DNA from: Candidatus Raymondbacteria bacterium RIFOXYA2_FULL_49_16
Lineage (GTDB): Bacteria > Fibrobacterota > OXYB2-FULL-49-7 > XYB2-FULL-49-35
Direction: 5' to 3'
NCBI GenBank assembly: GCA_001789205.1
Contig: MFYT01000104.1
Span: 1 to 22,010, forward strand
Length of the DNA: 22,010 nucleotides
In this document: piece after piece, positions 1 to 11,829 of the stretch
Position numbering within the stretch: position 1 is the first letter of the stretch
Layout: the number at the start of each line of letters is the position of its first letter
Program-made: the position numbers and the translations under genes
Notes under the pieces: model-generated
Databases searched by the model: none
Told to the model about the DNA's origin: nothing
What the model saw: the letters and a program-made list of their open reading frames with translations, nothing else

Positions 1-79
1 GAATGAAGAGCCGTATGCGGGAAAGCTGCTCGTACGGTTCCGCGAGGGGCTGGGCAGGCAACTGCCCGGTCTACTCAAC
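1..79 (+). mobile_element. 3' end of a group II intron (domains V and VI); the rest lies upstream of the window
   Basis: Bases 8-40 read as domain V. The lower stem GAGCCGTA pairs with TACGGTTC, there is a two-base CG bulge at 31-32, and an upper stem GCGG/CTGC closes a GAAAG loop (one U-U mismatch at 16/30). This matches the well-known bacterial/chloroplast-like domain V consensus. Bases 44-76 form domain VI: a long helix capped by a GCAA tetraloop at 58-61, with a single unpaired A at 73. That is the expected branch point, seven bases from a 3' boundary ending in AAC at 79. The intron therefore ends at about 79. Its 5' part and reverse-transcriptase gene, if any, are outside the window. The fold was worked out by hand, but every helix position is accounted for. 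Confidence 0.85.
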
Positions 80-88
80 AACAAAGTA

Positions 89-1954
89 TTGACGGCATCC
101 ATCCTGGTATGCATGCTGGCAGGTGTTCAGCCTTGGGCTTTTGACGGATCAGGATACTGGCCTGAATTTTATCCATACCTTACCTGCGACCAGGGATGCG
201 TTGACTCTATGCGTAATGTCAACGTGCGCTGGCAGGAAAGCCAGGGAATCCGGGGATGGAACAAATACCGCTTCGGGCTCATAGGTAATTCCATAACAAA
301 CGACGGGCCTTTTCCCTCTGACCTGTCGTCGGGGTGCCATGCATGGTGCGGAACAGGTATTATGAATTGTTCAAGACCTGGAAACTCGTTCTGGGCCACC
401 TTTCTCAACGAAACATGGGGCGGACCCGGCGCTGGCGGGGACGACCATCCCTGGCTGTACGACCAAGCCTGCCATGGTTCCGCCAATGGCAACCAGATCG
501 GCGCCACAACATCGGGCGGCTATACGTTGCTGGGGAATGCGCTGAACAATCTCAAGCCAATGTGGGTCACCCTTGAATACGGCCATAATGACGGCGCCGT
601 ATGGAATGCGACCCGGAGAAGTGAATGGGAAAGGCTCATCGGCCGGGCGCTTGATAGCAATATCATACCTATCGTGGTTACTATCAACCCTGAACAGATT
701 GGTTCATCATGGGACCACGATGGACGGACACCCATTTACAACGATTCCCTCAAGACCGTGGCCGCCCAGTTCCGGGTTCCCTGCCTGGATTGGTATGGCG
801 CTGCGGTGGATCCGGATATCGGGGGTTGCAGGATACGGACCGATGGCTGCACGCGCGACGGGGTCCATCCTGAAAGGTCGCAATCCGCGGGCAATTTTTC
901 AGACAGTGTGATATTTTATCCCCTGGCGCACGCCAAGGGCGTTTTAAACCCCGTATGCGGCTTGTGGACCGTCATGCTTCTCGAAATGACCTATGAATTA
1001 CGTGAAAAAGTCATATATCCCGCTGACACGCTCGCCGCGGGAAACGTTTTCACCTATACACTGAAGGATGAAATATCAGCCGCCTATATCAGGACAAGCA
1101 ATCCAACGGTAAATTACGGCAGTTCCCAGGATGTCCATGCGGAATTTTCACCCACAAGTGAAACCGAAAAAGGCATGGTACGGTGCAATCTTGCGGCCTT
1201 TAACAGCGTTGATATTAGTAAAATCGCCTCTGCGGTCTTTGAATTTCATCAGACACGCGGCAACGTGGCCATACAGGCTGGTCTGAAAAAAATGCTGGTG
1301 TCCTGGGACGAAACATCCGTCACTTGGAACGACCGTTCTTTGGGAACAGCGTGGGGCACGCCGGGAATGGGCACATCCGATTACGACAATGCAAGCCTCA
1401 AATATGCCTCGCTTGCCACCTCGACCTCGGGTGCGGGATGGGCCACGGACAGTTGGCGGTCTGTTGATGTCACTGACTGGGTGAAGGGATGGATTACCAG
1501 TCCGTCCACGAACAACGGTTTTGCTGTTGTGGTAACCAACAACTATACCGACCTTGTTTTCAATTCTGACGACGCCTCGGATGCCAGTCTCAGGCCCCGG
1601 CTTGTGATTAAAGCGACCGAGGACCTGGGAGTAAATAGCGTTGTAAAAAACCCGGCAGCCCAAACGCCTGAGGATTTTGCGATCAGTGCGTTTCCAACGC
1701 CATTCAATCCATCAACGACCATATCGTTTGCCATACCGCAAAGCAGTAATCCAAAACTTTTGTCGGTTTCTGTGTATACCGCATTGGGAAAAATGATACG
1801 TACGTTTGCGGAAACAGCGTACGGCCCAGGCAGTTTCAGCATACGGTGGGATGGCAAAGACGAAAAAGGCGTTCAACAAGCGACCGGCATGTATTGCATT
1901 GTTCTCAGCACGGAAAAAATACATAAAAGCTGCAGGGTTGTCTTAGTGAAATAA
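89..1954 (+). CDS. Secreted SGNH/GDSL-type esterase with DNRLRE module and C-terminal sorting-like domain; 5' exon cut off by a group II intron
   Basis: Numbering starts at a TTG at 89, but the frame is open to the window edge and no ribosome site precedes it. The real start codon is probably in an upstream exon, with coding resuming at about 80 (N-K-V-L-T-A-S), just after the intron. The first ~17 residues are a hydrophobic signal-peptide core. Residues ~60-265 form an SGNH hydrolase: block I GNSIT with Ser68 (usual GDS is GNS here), block III GHND (165-168), block V DGVH (Asp257, His260). Residues ~327-510 look like a DNRLRE/CBM-type beta module ('WDETSVTWNDR', 'VDVTDWVKGW'). Residues ~533-621 are a FlgD/type-A-like sorting domain. 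The esterase part has several CxxxC and CxxC-type cysteines, fitting an exported, disulfide-bonded protein. It is probably a carbohydrate esterase; the substrate is unknown. Confidence 0.8.
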   Translation: MTASILVCMLAGVQPWAFDGSGYWPEFYPYLTCDQGCVDSMRNVNVRWQESQGIRGWNKYRFGLIGNSITNDGPFPSDLSSGCHAWCGTGIMNCSRPGNSFWATFLNETWGGPGAGGDDHPWLYDQACHGSANGNQIGATTSGGYTLLGNALNNLKPMWVTLEYGHNDGAVWNATRRSEWERLIGRALDSNIIPIVVTINPEQIGSSWDHDGRTPIYNDSLKTVAAQFRVPCLDWYGAAVDPDIGGCRIRTDGCTRDGVHPERSQSAGNFSDSVIFYPLAHAKGVLNPVCGLWTVMLLEMTYELREKVIYPADTLAAGNVFTYTLKDEISAAYIRTSNPTVNYGSSQDVHAEFSPTSETEKGMVRCNLAAFNSVDISKIASAVFEFHQTRGNVAIQAGLKKMLVSWDETSVTWNDRSLGTAWGTPGMGTSDYDNASLKYASLATSTSGAGWATDSWRSVDVTDWVKGWITSPSTNNGFAVVVTNNYTDLVFNSDDASDASLRPRLVIKATEDLGVNSVVKNPAAQTPEDFAISAFPTPFNPSTTISFAIPQSSNPKLLSVSVYTALGKMIRTFAETAYGPGSFSIRWDGKDEKGVQQATGMYCIVLSTEKIHKSCRVVLVK

Positions 1955-3017: not shown

Positions 3018-6365
<3,348 letters not shown>

Positions 6366-6379
6366 GAGGATTCCCTTCC

Positions 6380-7873
6380 ATGGAAAAACGCTCGAGCGGC
6401 GTTCTGCTGCATCTCTCCTCGCTTCCCTCACGTCACGGTATCGGCGACATGGGGCCCGCAGCCTACGGGTTCGCTGATATGCTCGCCCGGGCTGGACAGT
6501 CGGTCTGGCAGGTGCTGCCCCTTGGTCCAACCAATGCCGGCTGCGGCCACTCTCCCTATTTCAGCGCCTCCGCTTTTGCGGGCAACCCGCTCCTAATAAG
6601 CCTCGATGAGCTTGAAAAACAGGGTCTGCTCGACCCCGGCGCCATTGCACTGCCCCGGTTTTCCGAGGGCGCGGTCGATTATGAATCAGTCAAGGAATAC
6701 AAGACTGCGGCGCTCGACGCGGCCTACGCCCGCTTTAAAAAAAGCGCGCAGCGCGGCCCGTTCGACCGGTTTTGCCGCGACCAGAAGGCATGGCTCGACG
6801 ATTTCGCCCTTTTTTCCGTGTGCAGCAGGCTATACACCGGCGCCGTATGGAGCGACTGGCCAGGCGAACTCCGCGAACGGCGCGCCTCGGCGCTTACAAT
6901 CTTGCGCGAAAAGGAGGCCGCCCTTCTGGAAAAAACCAAGTTCTTCCAGTTCCTTTTTTTTACACAGTGGGCCGCCCTGAAAAAACACTGCAACAGCCGC
7001 GGAATACGCATTCTGGGCGATCTTCCCATTTACGTGAGCTACAACAGCGCCGATGTCTGGGTGCATCAGGACCTTTTCAAACTTGACGCGCAGGGAAGAC
7101 CCCTTGCTGTTTCCGGCGTGCCGCCCGACTATTTCAGCGCCACGGGACAGCTATGGAACAACCCGGTCTACCGGTGGCCTGAAATGCGGCGCACAGGCTT
7201 TGCCTGGTGGCTGGAGCGGGTGGCCGCGCTCTTCGGCAAGTTTGATTATGTGCGTATAGACCATTTCCGCGGGCTGGTGCAGTACTGGGAAGTCCCAGCC
7301 GGAGAAGCTACCGCGATCAACGGATCGTGGCAAGACGTACCTTCCTACGAATTTTTCGACGCGCTGAAACAGCGCTTTCCCTCGTTTCCCGTGATTGCCG
7401 AGGACCTGGGCACCATTACGGACGACGTGATCGCCGTAAAAAACCATTATGGGCTGCCGGGCATGAAAGTGCTTATCTTCGGATTCAGCGAGCACGACCC
7501 CGACAGCCCGCACCTGCCGCACCGGTACAAGGAGAACTGCGTGGCCTATACGGGCACGCACGACAACAATACGGTACGGGGCTGGTTCGAAAACGACGCC
7601 TCACAGGAAAACAAATGGAAGTTCTTTGGATACGCGGGAAAAGAGGTGACCGCGGCCGATGCGCCGTGGGAAATGGTCCGGATGGTCATGGAATCGCGCG
7701 CCAGCCTCGCCATTGTCCCGGTCCAGGACCTCTGCTGCCTGCCCGGCAGCGCGCGCATGAACAATCCCGCCCAAACTTTCGGCAATTGGACATGGCGGCT
7801 TACTGGCGATCAGTTTGACGCCATGCCAGTGGCCCGCCTTAGGGAACGTACCCGCGCCACTGGACGCGCCTGA
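6380..7873 (+). CDS. malQ: 4-alpha-glucanotransferase (amylomaltase, GH77)
   Basis: The 497-residue product transfers alpha-1,4-glucan segments between malto-oligosaccharides, releasing glucose and lengthening acceptors. GH77 landmarks are complete: N-terminal 'GVLLHLSSLPSRHGIGDMG', nucleophile Asp294 in 'VRIDHFRG', acid/base Glu341 in 'VIAEDLG', third carboxylate Asp395 in 'GTHDNNT', and the C-terminal 'RMNNPAQTFGNWTWRL' acceptor-site block. Length is normal. The ribosome site AAGAGGA overlaps the treS stop codon, so the two genes are very likely co-transcribed and serve trehalose/maltose/glycogen turnover together. The stop codon is only 12 bases from the end of the convergent rhamnose operon, with no obvious terminator between them. 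Confidence 0.96.
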   Translation: MEKRSSGVLLHLSSLPSRHGIGDMGPAAYGFADMLARAGQSVWQVLPLGPTNAGCGHSPYFSASAFAGNPLLISLDELEKQGLLDPGAIALPRFSEGAVDYESVKEYKTAALDAAYARFKKSAQRGPFDRFCRDQKAWLDDFALFSVCSRLYTGAVWSDWPGELRERRASALTILREKEAALLEKTKFFQFLFFTQWAALKKHCNSRGIRILGDLPIYVSYNSADVWVHQDLFKLDAQGRPLAVSGVPPDYFSATGQLWNNPVYRWPEMRRTGFAWWLERVAALFGKFDYVRIDHFRGLVQYWEVPAGEATAINGSWQDVPSYEFFDALKQRFPSFPVIAEDLGTITDDVIAVKNHYGLPGMKVLIFGFSEHDPDSPHLPHRYKENCVAYTGTHDNNTVRGWFENDASQENKWKFFGYAGKEVTAADAPWEMVRMVMESRASLAIVPVQDLCCLPGSARMNNPAQTFGNWTWRLTGDQFDAMPVARLRERTRATGRA

Positions 7874-7885
7874 TCCCCGCCGCGC

Positions 7886-9031
7886 CTATGTGAGCTGTGC
7901 GGACCGGTAGGACTCCGCCTCCCAGGTCAGAATGGCCTTGATGGTCGCGGGCGCCATGCTCTTCACCCTCCCCTTGGCCAGAAGGCTTATCTGGAGTACT
8001 GCCTGGGCGCATGCTTCTCCCGCTGCGCACAGTTTTTCCGAAGCCCCGGCAACCACCAATCCCGCGCCTTTAACGATGATGAGTTTTGGCGGCCTCTTCC
8101 AAAATGCCGCGTAGCCGGCAATGGCGTCATAGACTTCTTTTTCAGTAAATCCCGGCGCAAGAAAAAGGGCCGCGGGGCCATTGTACACCACATAGTCGGG
8201 CGCGAGCGCCCCTTCAAAGGCCTGGAGGTGCTTTGACGAAGCAGCCAACTGAAAAAAGAGGCCGTTGCACTCGCGTACAACAAGGGGCTCGCTCTTTCTT
8301 TCGGCCGTGATCTTCTCGAACGCCGCCCTGATCGCCTTTACATCCAGCACCGCTGCGGAGAGGCTGTCCTTGAGTTCCTCCGGCGCGCCAAAATAGGCCT
8401 CGAGCCGCGCCATCCACGCCTCGTGCAGGCCAATGCACCCGGCCGCGGTATCGTCGGCGCACACAAACCCGTGGTTTTCGAGGAAAATGACCCGGGGAGA
8501 TACCGTGTGCGCTTGCTGATACTCGCGTATTTTTTCGCGCAGCAAAAAGGCGAGGGACGCTCCCGGATCAACATAGGGAACAAACAGGGACGGCGGTCCC
8601 TTCACGTCTAGCGCAATTGCCTGGAACATCTCCTCGGCGTTTATATTGCATGTGAGCGCATTGGCGGCCACCGCGTGGCTGTGGATGACCGCGTGTCCCA
8701 AAATGGCGTGAAGCGGGGTTTCGACCGAGGGTCGCGCTCCCTGAGGTTCAACAACGCTGCGGTAAAAATAATCAAGTACCCGCTTTTCCCGTTCAGCCGG
8801 AGCGCATTGCCGTAAATCCGCGTCGTCGTAGAGGGCCATGATGGCGGGAATGGAAAGCTTCACCCATCCTTTTGTTTCGGACATGTCCCTGAGCGGCACC
8901 CCGCTGCTCTTGATGAGCATTTCGCTGGCACCTGATTTAATTGACGTATTGCCTCCGCCCGCCTGCACATACGACGGGTTGCTTCCCAGATAATGGCTGA
9001 TGGTGATAAGATCGGTCAGTTCGCGTGTCAT
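7886..9031 (-). CDS. Class II aldolase/adducin-family protein, probable rhamnulose-1-phosphate aldolase
   Basis: The 381-residue product should cleave L-rhamnulose 1-phosphate to DHAP and L-lactaldehyde. Residues ~1-215 are a class II (zinc) aldolase domain: phosphate-binding 'AGGGNTSIK' (24-32), Glu104 in 'PSVETPLH', and metal ligands His117, His119 ('IHSHAVAAN') and His187 ('LENHGF'). Residues ~250-381 form a second domain that resembles the middle part of bifunctional RhaEW enzymes rather than the short E. coli RhaD. The SDR half of such an enzyme appears to be the separate gene at 18462-19580. It is the last gene of the operon, 15 bases after rhaA, with an AGAAAGGG ribosome site. The family is clear from sequence; the substrate is inferred from neighbouring rhaA and rhaB. 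Confidence 0.82.
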   Translation of the reverse strand: MTRELTDLITISHYLGSNPSYVQAGGGNTSIKSGASEMLIKSSGVPLRDMSETKGWVKLSIPAIMALYDDADLRQCAPAEREKRVLDYFYRSVVEPQGARPSVETPLHAILGHAVIHSHAVAANALTCNINAEEMFQAIALDVKGPPSLFVPYVDPGASLAFLLREKIREYQQAHTVSPRVIFLENHGFVCADDTAAGCIGLHEAWMARLEAYFGAPEELKDSLSAAVLDVKAIRAAFEKITAERKSEPLVVRECNGLFFQLAASSKHLQAFEGALAPDYVVYNGPAALFLAPGFTEKEVYDAIAGYAAFWKRPPKLIIVKGAGLVVAGASEKLCAAGEACAQAVLQISLLAKGRVKSMAPATIKAILTWEAESYRSAQLT

Positions 9032-9046
9032 GGGGGCCCTTTCTGT

Positions 9047-10324
9047 TTATATCCTTTTTGATAATACATTCTTCTCGTATTGTTGTACCTCGGTGAGCCA
9101 CCCTGTTCCCGTTGGCACGCCATGGTTCTGGCAAAAATGGTCCCATACTGCGCCAAGAGGCATGGTGCGCGTCTCCTCGAACAGGGCCAGCCTGCGCGTA
9201 AAATCCCGCGCCTGCTCGGCCTCGCGAAGCGCCGCCCGGGGCGAAAGCAGCGCCGCGAGGAGCGCTTTCTGGGTCGCCTGCGCGCCAATGACCCAGGCTG
9301 CCACGCGGTTTATGCTCGCGTCAAAATAGTCGAGGGCAAGGTGCACACGGTTGAGGAAATCTTTTTGCGTCATCTCGTACGCCAGGGCATACAGGTCGTC
9401 GGAGAGGGTGACCACGTGGTCGCTGTCCCAACGCACGCCCCTGCTCACATGCACGAGCAATTCGTCGATATAGAGCAGGACCGACGAAATTTTGTCGGCA
9501 ATGGTTTCCGTGGGATGGAAATGGCCCATGTCGAGGGTGAGCATTTTTTTGCGCGACACCGCGTACCCGAGGTAAAACTCGAACGATCCGGTGACAAACG
9601 ACTCTGATCCAATGCCGAAGAGTTTGCTCTCAACCGCGTCGCGCATGGTACGGGGGTCAATTTTTTCGGTAAAGACGCTGTCGAGCGCCTTGAGCAGGGC
9701 CTCGCGATGGACCATCCTGTTCGCAGGATTGTCTTTGTAACCATCGGGGATCCAGAGGTTGACATAACAGGTTGATTTCTGGTTTTTCCCCAGCGCCTCT
9801 CCTATGGCGCGCGAGCCTTTACCGTGCCGTATCCAGTACCCGCGGACTAATTTGTCAAGGCTCGATAGCGTGAACCCGCTCGCTGCCATGGGGTGCGAAA
9901 AAAAACTGCCGTTATAGTCGAGGGCGATTGTCTGCTCTTTTGACCACGCCATCCAATTGGAAAAATGACACGGTTCAAGGTCAGCGCGGTCTATCTTTTT
10001 CCCGTTGGTTTCCGCGTAAATGGCGTGAAGGTTGACCCGGTGTTTTCCGGGAATAAGTTTCAGGGCCATCTCGAGGTCTGCACGCAGCTCATCGCCATTG
10101 CGCGCCTTGCCCGGATACGAACCGGTTGCCATGATGCCGCCGCCCGTGAGCCCTTCGGCGGACTCGAATCCGCCCACATCGTCACCCTGCCAGCAGTGCA
10201 TGGACAGCGGTATTTTGGCAAGCACCTGCAATGTTTTTTCCGTGTCAATGCCCATGCTTGCGTAGCGCTCCTTTGCGGCCAGATAAGACCTGTTGATCTG
10301 CTGATCTGACAGGGAACCGTTCAT
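9047..10324 (-). CDS. rhaA: L-rhamnose isomerase
   Basis: The 425-residue protein matches RhaA along its whole length (E. coli RhaA is about 419). It interconverts L-rhamnose and L-rhamnulose in the cytoplasm. Diagnostic blocks are 'IPLSMHCWQGDDVGGFE', 'GGIMATGSYPGKARNGDELRADL' near the N-terminus, 'AVESKLFGIGSESF', metal-binding 'DMGHFHPTE' (Asp265, His268, His270), 'RWDSDHVV' (Asp300, Asp302, His303) and 'YFDASINRVAAWVIG'. Its ATG overlaps the rhaB stop in an ATGA, and its AAGGAG ribosome site lies inside rhaB, so translation is probably coupled. Confidence 0.97.
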   Translation of the reverse strand: MNGSLSDQQINRSYLAAKERYASMGIDTEKTLQVLAKIPLSMHCWQGDDVGGFESAEGLTGGGIMATGSYPGKARNGDELRADLEMALKLIPGKHRVNLHAIYAETNGKKIDRADLEPCHFSNWMAWSKEQTIALDYNGSFFSHPMAASGFTLSSLDKLVRGYWIRHGKGSRAIGEALGKNQKSTCYVNLWIPDGYKDNPANRMVHREALLKALDSVFTEKIDPRTMRDAVESKLFGIGSESFVTGSFEFYLGYAVSRKKMLTLDMGHFHPTETIADKISSVLLYIDELLVHVSRGVRWDSDHVVTLSDDLYALAYEMTQKDFLNRVHLALDYFDASINRVAAWVIGAQATQKALLAALLSPRAALREAEQARDFTRRLALFEETRTMPLGAVWDHFCQNHGVPTGTGWLTEVQQYEKNVLSKRI

Positions 10325-11829
10325 GCATTTCTCCTTTTTTGTACTATGGTCCTATACCTCGTATATTCCTTTTCCCACGTGCTGGTATCCTGTGGTGCGT
10401 AGCGCTCTATTTTTTCCGATGCGCGTACAACCTGCCTGATGTTCTGGACATCCTTCAGGTGGCCAAGACCCCACGCCTGCACCAGCAGATTGCCCATGGC
10501 AGTGCCTTCAACTGGGCCTGTGACAACGGGAATACCGCACGCATCGGCTGCCATCTGGCAGAGCAGCCTGTTTTTTGTTCCACCGCCAATTATGTGAAGC
10601 GTTTTTATCTGATGCGGCGATACCTCGCGAAGTTGATCAAGTGTTGTGCGATAGGTGAATGCGAGCGATTCCAGCACGCACCTGATTATGGCGCCCGGTG
10701 TTGACGGTACGTTCTGCCTGGTGTTTTTGCAATATGTTTTTATGGCCTTTGGCATGTCCTGTGGATTTGCAAACAGAGGATCGTCTGGGTTTATATATGA
10801 TTTGAACGGCGTGGCCTGCTGGGCCATCCCGGTCAAATGAGAAAACGAGATATCGCTCTCCTCGCGCCTCGTGCCTCGTGCCTCGTGCCGCCATTTCTCC
10901 CTGCATTGCTGCACAATCCACATGCCTGTAATGTTTTTAAGAAACCGGTAGGTATTGTTTATCCCACCCTCATTGGAAAAATTGTATCGAAACGCCCTGT
11001 CGTTGATAATGGCATCCGGCACCTCAATCCCCATGATCGACCATGTTCCGGAAGAAATGAAAGCCCATTCTTTTCCCTCGGCCGGTATGGAGGCAACTGC
11101 CGCGGCAGTATCGTGGCTCGCTGTTGCCAGAACAGGGACGCGGGACATACCTGTTTCAGCTGCAAGGTGGTTTTGGAGCACACCTATCTTTGTCCCTGGC
11201 ATGACGATCTTCTGAAACAATGATCTTTTCGCACCTGTTGTTTTAATGAGTGTTGCGTCCCAGTTTCGGGTTGCCGGATGTACGAGCGCTGATGTTGATG
11301 CGTCAGTGAATTCATTGAATTTTCTCCCAGTCAGGTAATAATTAATCAAATCCGGTATCATAAAAAAAGCATCTGCGGCAGCCAGTTCCGCTGCTGTATC
11401 AGATACGGCCGAATGGATCTGAAAAATAGTGTTAAAATACAGGTGCTGTAATCCGGTCCTGTTGAAAATGTCCCTCTTTGATATTTTTTTTAGCAGCTTT
11501 GGTATTGTCCTGTGCGTACGATTGTCTCGATATGCATAGGGAAGCCCTGAAAGCGACCCGTCTTTGGTGATCAGCGCGTAATCAACACCCCAAGTGTCAA
11601 CGCCAATTGCATCGGGCACAGGACATATCAGTGCGCATTTGCGAAGACCTTTTTTGATTTCATCCAGAAGATGCACAATGTTCCAGTAATAATGGCCGAA
11701 CAGGAATGACATGCGGTTCTCGAAACGGTGCAGTTCGCGGATAGAGAGCTTTCCGTTCTTCAGCGTGCCGAGCATTGCCCTGCCGCTGCTTGCGCCAAGA
11801 TCAAATGCGAGGTAGTGATGTGTTGGCAT
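10321..11829 (-). CDS. rhaB: L-rhamnulokinase (FGGY family)
   Basis: The 502-residue sugar kinase phosphorylates L-rhamnulose at C1 with ATP. FGGY/rhamnulokinase signs include the N-terminal phosphate loop 'FDLGASSGRAMLG', 'GVDTWGVDYALI', the probable catalytic base Asp240 in 'ATASHDTAAAV', 'FISSGTWSIMG', and adenosine-binding 'HIIGGGTKNRLLCQ' with 'GPVEGTAMGNLLVQAWG' near the C-terminus. Residues ~314-324 (RHEARGTRREE) form an extra segment encoded by four tandem copies of a 7-bp unit; the sites named above lie outside it. It follows the E1 gene after a 52-base gap containing a palindromic repeat, has an AAAGGA ribosome site, and overlaps rhaA by four bases. Confidence 0.95.
   Translation of the reverse strand: MPTHHYLAFDLGASSGRAMLGTLKNGKLSIRELHRFENRMSFLFGHYYWNIVHLLDEIKKGLRKCALICPVPDAIGVDTWGVDYALITKDGSLSGLPYAYRDNRTHRTIPKLLKKISKRDIFNRTGLQHLYFNTIFQIHSAVSDTAAELAAADAFFMIPDLINYYLTGRKFNEFTDASTSALVHPATRNWDATLIKTTGAKRSLFQKIVMPGTKIGVLQNHLAAETGMSRVPVLATASHDTAAAVASIPAEGKEWAFISSGTWSIMGIEVPDAIINDRAFRYNFSNEGGINNTYRFLKNITGMWIVQQCREKWRHEARGTRREESDISFSHLTGMAQQATPFKSYINPDDPLFANPQDMPKAIKTYCKNTRQNVPSTPGAIIRCVLESLAFTYRTTLDQLREVSPHQIKTLHIIGGGTKNRLLCQMAADACGIPVVTGPVEGTAMGNLLVQAWGLGHLKDVQNIRQVVRASEKIERYAPQDTSTWEKEYTRYRTIVQKRRNA
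10861..10888 (-). repeat. Heptamer tandem repeat inside rhaB
   Basis: On the plus strand, four consecutive units of CTCGYGC (CTCGCGC once, CTCGTGC three times) occupy this stretch. They encode the Arg/Gly/Glu-rich segment at RhaB residues ~314-324, between the conserved 'QQCREKW' and 'SHLTGMAQQA' blocks, where rhamnulokinases normally have only a short loop. A 7-bp unit is not a multiple of three, so gain or loss of one unit would shift the rhaB frame. Confidence 0.85.

Follow-up and report, generated by a model that had tools for sequence, protein, structure and literature searches.

The window analysed here, a stretch of 22,010 nucleotides, is contig C104 of a draft genome of 5.43 Mb in 112 contigs, which its closest public matches, from Fibrobacter sp. 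and Chitinivibrionales bins, put within or close to Fibrobacterota. It begins with the last part of a group II intron, directly followed by a gene for a secreted GDSL esterase, and it opens inside the intron because the intron repeat was collapsed in the assembly. Positions 6-79 of the plus strand matched Intron_gpII (Rfam RF00029) over the full model and without truncation, with 49.7 bits against a cut-off of 40 bits (E 3.2e-7). This was the sole Rfam match in the window, which holds a single domain V/VI set, and the segment is confirmed as the 3' end of a group II intron. The features are as follows.

1..79, plus strand: group II intron 3' end (RF00029 over 6-79; same in seven places in the genome)
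2..79, plus strand: open frame NEEPYAGKLLVRFREGLGRQLPGLLN across domains V-VI, sharing the phase of the 3' exon, a putative leader for translating unspliced RNA (translated sequence; start seen in the C84 copy)
8..40, plus strand: domain V hairpin (RF00029 alignment and minimum-energy fold)
44..76, plus strand: domain VI hairpin with GCAA tetraloop (RF00029 alignment and minimum-energy fold)
73, plus strand: bulged A, presumed branch point (all other bases of the domain VI stem are paired in the fold)
77..79, plus strand: intron 3' terminus AAC, splice junction 79/80 (copies same to 79, different from 80)
80..1954, plus strand: 3' exon, secreted GDSL esterase gene from codon 2 (open frame, domains, intact paralogues with Met)
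80..136, plus strand: signal peptide minus Met, N-K-V-L-T-A-S-I-L-V-C-M-L-A-G-V-Q-P-W (comparison with paralogue C2)

An earlier note, made from the letters alone, had proposed domain V at 8-40, domain VI at 44-76 and A73, and these were reproduced right to the base by RF00029 and by the minimum-energy fold of window 1-79, in which A73 would act as the branch point. The 3' end AAC at 79 given there held as well: the terminus reads ...CTACTCAAC with base 79 as its last, and the boundary is placed at 79/80 because the six other copies in the genome match through base 79 and diverge at the next base. So did the frame N-K-V-L-T-A-S-I-L-V directly behind the intron, since it stays open for 624 codons from base 80 (AAC AAA GTA TTG...), and the signal peptide follows the end of the intron with no ATG in between. 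The encoded protein has a signal peptide, a Lipase_GDSL_2 domain, a CBM96 domain and a FlgD_ig / FlgD-like C-terminal tail. Farther along the window lie an ordinary glycan pair, TreS (trehalose synthase fused to maltokinase) and then MalQ (4-alpha-glucanotransferase), at 3018-7873, and on the minus strand at 7886-11829 a rhamnose catabolism cluster of an aldolase-like protein, L-rhamnose isomerase and rhamnulokinase.

Three intact paralogues of the esterase were found in the same genome (C2, C30 and C40), each opening with M and 18-19 residues before an (A/G)FxG motif. Their starts are, in this order, MVKPAVIFSAVCVWFVLANG-AFQGSGYWPEFYPYL, MVNRLLVFLFLVAGVFSCAL-GFQGTGSWTEFYPFL and MRYITVIFIIISFCTLSQA-AFDGSSYWPEFYPYL. 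The window protein starts NKVLTASILVCMLAGVQPW-AFDGSGYWPEFYPYL and has 19 residues before AFDGSGYWP, where paralogue C2 has M and 19 before AFQGSGYWP. Because the N-termini are equal in length save for the Met, it is the Met alone that is missing from the window gene, and the comparison supported the reading that the intron separates codon 1 from codon 2 of the esterase gene.

Intron copies and their insertion sites

Intron 3' ends occur at seven places in the genome (C95, C46, C66, C84, C97, C102 and C104); they share every base up to 79 and part at base 80. Probing with the 5' portion of a complete relative (G076:C81, L022) recovered seven 5' ends (C99, C85, C86, C102, C29, C87 and C92), each at the end of a contig, and since the two counts agree the set of copies is probably complete. 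The 5' boundary was set by the seven divergent 5' exons together with the frame. Every one of these exons ends in ATG right before GTTAACCTGG, positions -3 to -1 being invariant, and every one of the seven 3' exons starts with A. Five of the 5' exons are candidates for the window copy (C99, C86, C87, C102 and C92), and gene content did not discriminate among them.

The earlier note had expected the start codon in a 5' exon upstream, together with one or two basic codons and further residues. The ATG is where it was expected; the basic codon lies in the 3' exon, and by the paralogues no residue other than Met belongs upstream. The note had also sought GUGYG at the intron 5' end, and the actual sequence is GUUAACC (GUUAACCUGG) in all seven copies, with GUCAACC and GUAAACC in relatives. 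GUGYG is the 5' consensus of group II introns but is not invariant. The element is filed as a group II intron despite its 5' end, because this consensus varies and the features of domains V and VI are present.

The 5' exon contexts resemble translation starts. A Shine-Dalgarno-like (SD) stretch lies ahead of the ATG in most of the seven, with G at -12 in 5/7 and at -11 in 6/7, the SD position, and the contexts include AAGGAGCGGGAAAATG, AAAGGAGATTGATTATG, a TAATG, a TAAATG right after a gene, and an ATGA stop-start overlap. On the other side of the intron, the 3' exons open in phase 0 in five of the seven copies, for 173-624 codons, and their proteins, lacking Met, begin with KTLLLVASF, KYTIVLLI, RISFIVIY, NKVLTASILV and IAACTILVAEDN. 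The last of these (C95) is a receiver-Hpt protein and matches the 5' exon on C85: there a CheR gene ends in a TGA that shares bases with the ATG of the receiver-Hpt gene, a normal operon junction. As exceptions, C29 and C102 fit together as one gene, split in phase 1 at an SD-like ATGA that is apparently not a start, and behind the C66 copy comes a 5-codon mini-ORF and only farther downstream the real start. These exceptions therefore suggested that the intron recognises sequence, not function.

Group II introns pick their sites by EBS/IBS pairing, and the IBS1 of the window's family ends in ATG with A at +1, so the position at start codons might only reflect that EBS1 and IBS1 match over a short stretch, ATG plus A, in an ordinary retroelement that splices efficiently enough for its host and whose frame through domains V-VI is due to chance. 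This explanation, which we rate a little below even odds, also agrees with the C29/C102 insertion, made within a gene at an ATGA sequence. It accounts poorly for the distribution of sites: start-like sites were 3.8% of the ATGA sites in 188 kb of the window genome, whereas five of the seven insertions are at such sites (at least 5/7 by chance, P about 2e-6), and GG recurs at -12/-11 in the SD position. The excess over the 3.8% background indicated that recognition extends beyond ATGA. As a control, 39 3' exons were taken from other multicopy group II introns of the phylum (G020, G068, G089, G058, G092, G056 and G046); these had no common phase, and only 3 had at least 150 open codons. Because the pattern is lacking in this control, start-codon insertion is taken as specific to certain intron lineages, not to the phylum or the method. 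Judged by these junctions, the insertion in the window gene is a target preference of a seven-copy intron family and not a lone oddity, so that the claim of insertion into a coding gene in the earlier note was right but understated.

The window genome contains a second, two-copy intron family (G000:C48:12-86 and G000:C39:19-93; L013, L014, L045 and L046). The C39 3' exon begins RKALIVLGVF..., and its residue 1 aligns to residue 3 of the intact C66 protein MMRKALVGVL... at 66% identity. By this alignment the C39 copy appears to sit directly behind a start codon, in a gene that lacks its start only. The 5' exons of this family were sought in the window genome and not found.

Close relatives provided a view of how the site may be chosen. 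The introns of G076 and G024 are 86% identical, complete, ORF-less and about 680 nt long, and their EBS1 loops are flanked by conserved bases. EBS1 is CATTTT in G076, against a 5' exon end ATAATG (5/6 pairing), and CGAAAT in G024, against ATTTCG (6/6 pairing). As the two differ at EBS1 in the way their 5' exons require, exon specificity follows EBS1, and for the intron of the window genome EBS1 is predicted to read CATTTA. The option that the intron itself begins with this ATG was rejected, as G024 has ATTTCG in that place and the exon phase demands an exonic ATG. The close relative with EBS1 CGAAAT targets a dispersed TTTCGAATTTCG-like sequence (G024:C97, C100, C122 and C320; L053, L056, L058 and L072). 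Related 5' ends in G034:C260 and C112 and in G008 lie at sites other than ATG. When public genomes were scanned for the pattern of the 5' end, matches came from Fibrobacterota, Paenibacillus, an actinomycete, an acidobacterium and an Aminicenantes bin, some of the matches outside Fibrobacterota looking like chance.

We put at roughly 0.8 the probability that a group II intron family targets translation starts and in the window splits the esterase start codon from codon 2. This reading draws on the junctions, the ATG/A target, the frames, the paralogue comparison, the multicopy spread and the EBS1 change between relatives, all of which can be read directly from the DNA. The intron would insert between ATG and the next A, in most cases only a few bases past a purine-rich SD stretch, and in the window genome the site would be chosen by EBS1 pairing to 5' exons that end in ATG. 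After splicing the native gene would be exactly re-formed, with a junction reading ATG-AACAAAGTA, that is, ...ATG-AACAAAGTATTG. The maturase would be supplied in trans. A search of the window genome's bin with the G076 intron body found no intron interior (domain I, maturase), and the five maturase domains of the genome all belong to other introns.

Putative start signals within the introns

All seven copies can be read without a stop through domains V-VI in the phase of the exon, and the GCAA tetraloop of the window domain VI has no in-frame stop. The loop is GAAA in G076 and GTAA in G024, G048 and G036, relatives outside the group seen at ATG sites, where TAA is a stop in this frame. The second family of the window genome (C39/C48) also has GTAA, with a stop in that frame. 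The C84 copy extends farther upstream, with AATCAGGAGGAACCT-ATG-TCCGTTTC..., that is, AGGAGG-AACCT-ATG ahead of domain V. Its frame starts MSVSSMNTKPRRP... behind the AGGAGG, and the product MSVSSMNTKPRRPNEEPYAGKLLVRFREGLGRQLPGLLN is fused directly to codon 2. Such a start by chance was met in about 1% of shuffles of the C84 upstream stretch. Being observed in the C84 copy only, the start ahead of domain V is also compatible with the side effect of a short EBS1/IBS1 match discussed above. In the G076 relative the SD is badly spaced and the 3' exon is no clear gene, and among viral sequences SD-ATGTCTACTCGAC was matched once, at an ordinary gene start with no domain V upstream.

Within the window's family these arguments make a modest case for a fallback start. 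The 3' part of the intron, open in the host frame, probably provides it, and at least one copy has a ribosome site and an ATG of its own there. Unspliced RNA would then yield the esterase lengthened by 39 residues at its N-terminus, with peptides of MSVSSMNTKPRRPNEEPYAGK.... The earlier note had proposed that export of the esterase would depend on splicing; for the window itself, translation of unspliced RNA from a start upstream of the window is possible from the frame, and the evidence leans towards a second expression route via unspliced RNA. Ribosomes coming from the intron start would cross the catalytic domains, and one may speculate that splicing and translation of the unspliced RNA are mutually exclusive.

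A second lineage carries the start in domain VI itself. In G034, six intron copies have AAGGAGAAACTTATA-ATG-TCT-ACT-CGA-C in domain VI up to the junction, and their 3' exons open in phase 2, in frame with this ATG, for 141-620 codons in five and 28 in one. The 5' exons end in ATGA behind an SD in the three found in G034 and in one in G010, and in both genomes SD+ATG+TCTACTCGAC in domain VI shares the frame of the 3' exons. The complete G010 copy has a 5' exon ending AAGGGGATATTACATATGA and a 3' exon beginning AAAAAAGTTTTTGT, so that its host protein is MKKSFCFTLIL in native form and MFTRQKSFCFTLIL when started from the intron. The host frame is kept because the 13 intron bases from ATG to junction and the 4 exon bases leave an equal remainder. 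When started from the G034 intron, residues 6-619 of HtpG cover positions 2-614 of the 614-long NCBIfam model, and the protein aligns to a solved HtpG (2iop) from residue 4. SD+ATG was also kept in domain VI of G056 and G050, whose 3' exons are not long frames, and was absent from the eleven other domain VI sequences tested. On these sequences G034 and G010 would represent an independent lineage and a strong case for an intron-borne start, and the shared frame argues for selection. That a frame appears selected there speaks against chance as the origin of the frame through domains V-VI.

Taking both lineages together, we give even odds to a wider proposal, namely a class of introns that homes to start sites through pairing with the start region and brings along, in the host frame, a substitute ribosome site and start codon. 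Spliced RNA would then give the native protein and unspliced RNA one whose N-terminus is encoded by the intron, and the class would have evolved at least twice in one phylum. It seems improbable that the copies are dead for splicing and act as a mobile start cassette, the host genes being silent or expressed only via the intron start. The missing intron body in the window genome and the ORF-less state of G076 and G024 would fit, as would C.te.I1 of Clostridium tetani, where unspliced RNA is the main mRNA and the downstream ORF starts in domains V/VI (PMC3919590); domains V/VI that are intact, with the bulged A, in seven identical copies nevertheless point to recent activity, and maturase genes of other introns are present in the genome. 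A start of the window gene at the non-ATG TTG 89-91, with an intron merely inserted upstream, is very unlikely: this codon is in frame and a gene finder would choose it, but no ribosome site precedes it, the start would remove N-K-V from a signal peptide whose length with Met equals that of paralogue C2, and other copies likewise have 3' exons opening with KTLLLV, KYTIVLL and RISFIV.

Additional candidates were seen in G073 (C71, C15) and G094 (C93, C165; L150, L154, L129 and L152), with 5' exons ending in CAATG or ACATGA and a kept domain VI insert, MGKPVQHKxxKVESRLLD from its ATG, in phase 0 with the exon. The G094 insert lies ahead of a HicA-like protein. The domain VI ATG is suggestive of a start here, with no clear ribosome site.

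Relation to known introns

The usual view is that bacterial group II introns stay clear of host genes, since an intron left unspliced would inactivate the gene. If the proposal is true, an insertion between codons 1 and 2 with its own in-frame start would be nearly harmless, spliced or not, which would explain introns in ordinary bacterial genes, including htpG in G034. Splicing and translation would also become linked, and the targeting of start codons would follow a natural rule. A search of the open-access literature found no account of introns directed at start codons or of replacement starts carried by introns. In Clostridioides difficile, splicing of a c-di-GMP-dependent group I intron decides the translation start of the downstream gene; that system differs in being a group I ribozyme with a riboswitch, neither of which occurs in the window with its one Rfam match.

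The C. tetani intron C.te.I1 is a single, alternatively spliced locus with a coding unspliced RNA and a downstream ORF starting in domains V/VI (PMC3919590). Like the relatives of the window's intron it is ORF-less, and like the window's intron it lies in a protein gene. It differs in being one locus with several 3' ends, spliced alternatively behind a long 5' exon ORF that gives a full protein, whereas the window's family is multicopy and its 5' exon supplies a bare ATG. The tandem domain V/VI copies behind one 5' exon that mark the C.te.I1 type are absent from the window. In Thermosynechococcus elongatus, the TeI3 family F3 comprises seven identical ORF-less introns, five of them between two close start codons (PMC2882425), and there, too, a second start remains behind the insertion. 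However, these introns occupy one repeated site, a reverse transcriptase gene carried by other introns, and do not target host genes at large; the second start belongs to the target and not to the intron.

Bacterial group II introns are mostly located outside housekeeping genes, and ORF-less ones are rare (PMC4424553). The window's family shares with ordinary mobile introns (RF00029) the anatomy of domains V/VI and probably also the choice of site by EBS1-IBS1 and the spread by retrohoming; ordinary introns differ in their usual place outside housekeeping genes, and the other multicopy families of the phylum follow no start-codon rule. A different arrangement was seen at G000:C34:5508-6649 (L040), where two different maturase-bearing group II introns lie nested or adjacent within about 1.2 kb, possibly as a twintron.
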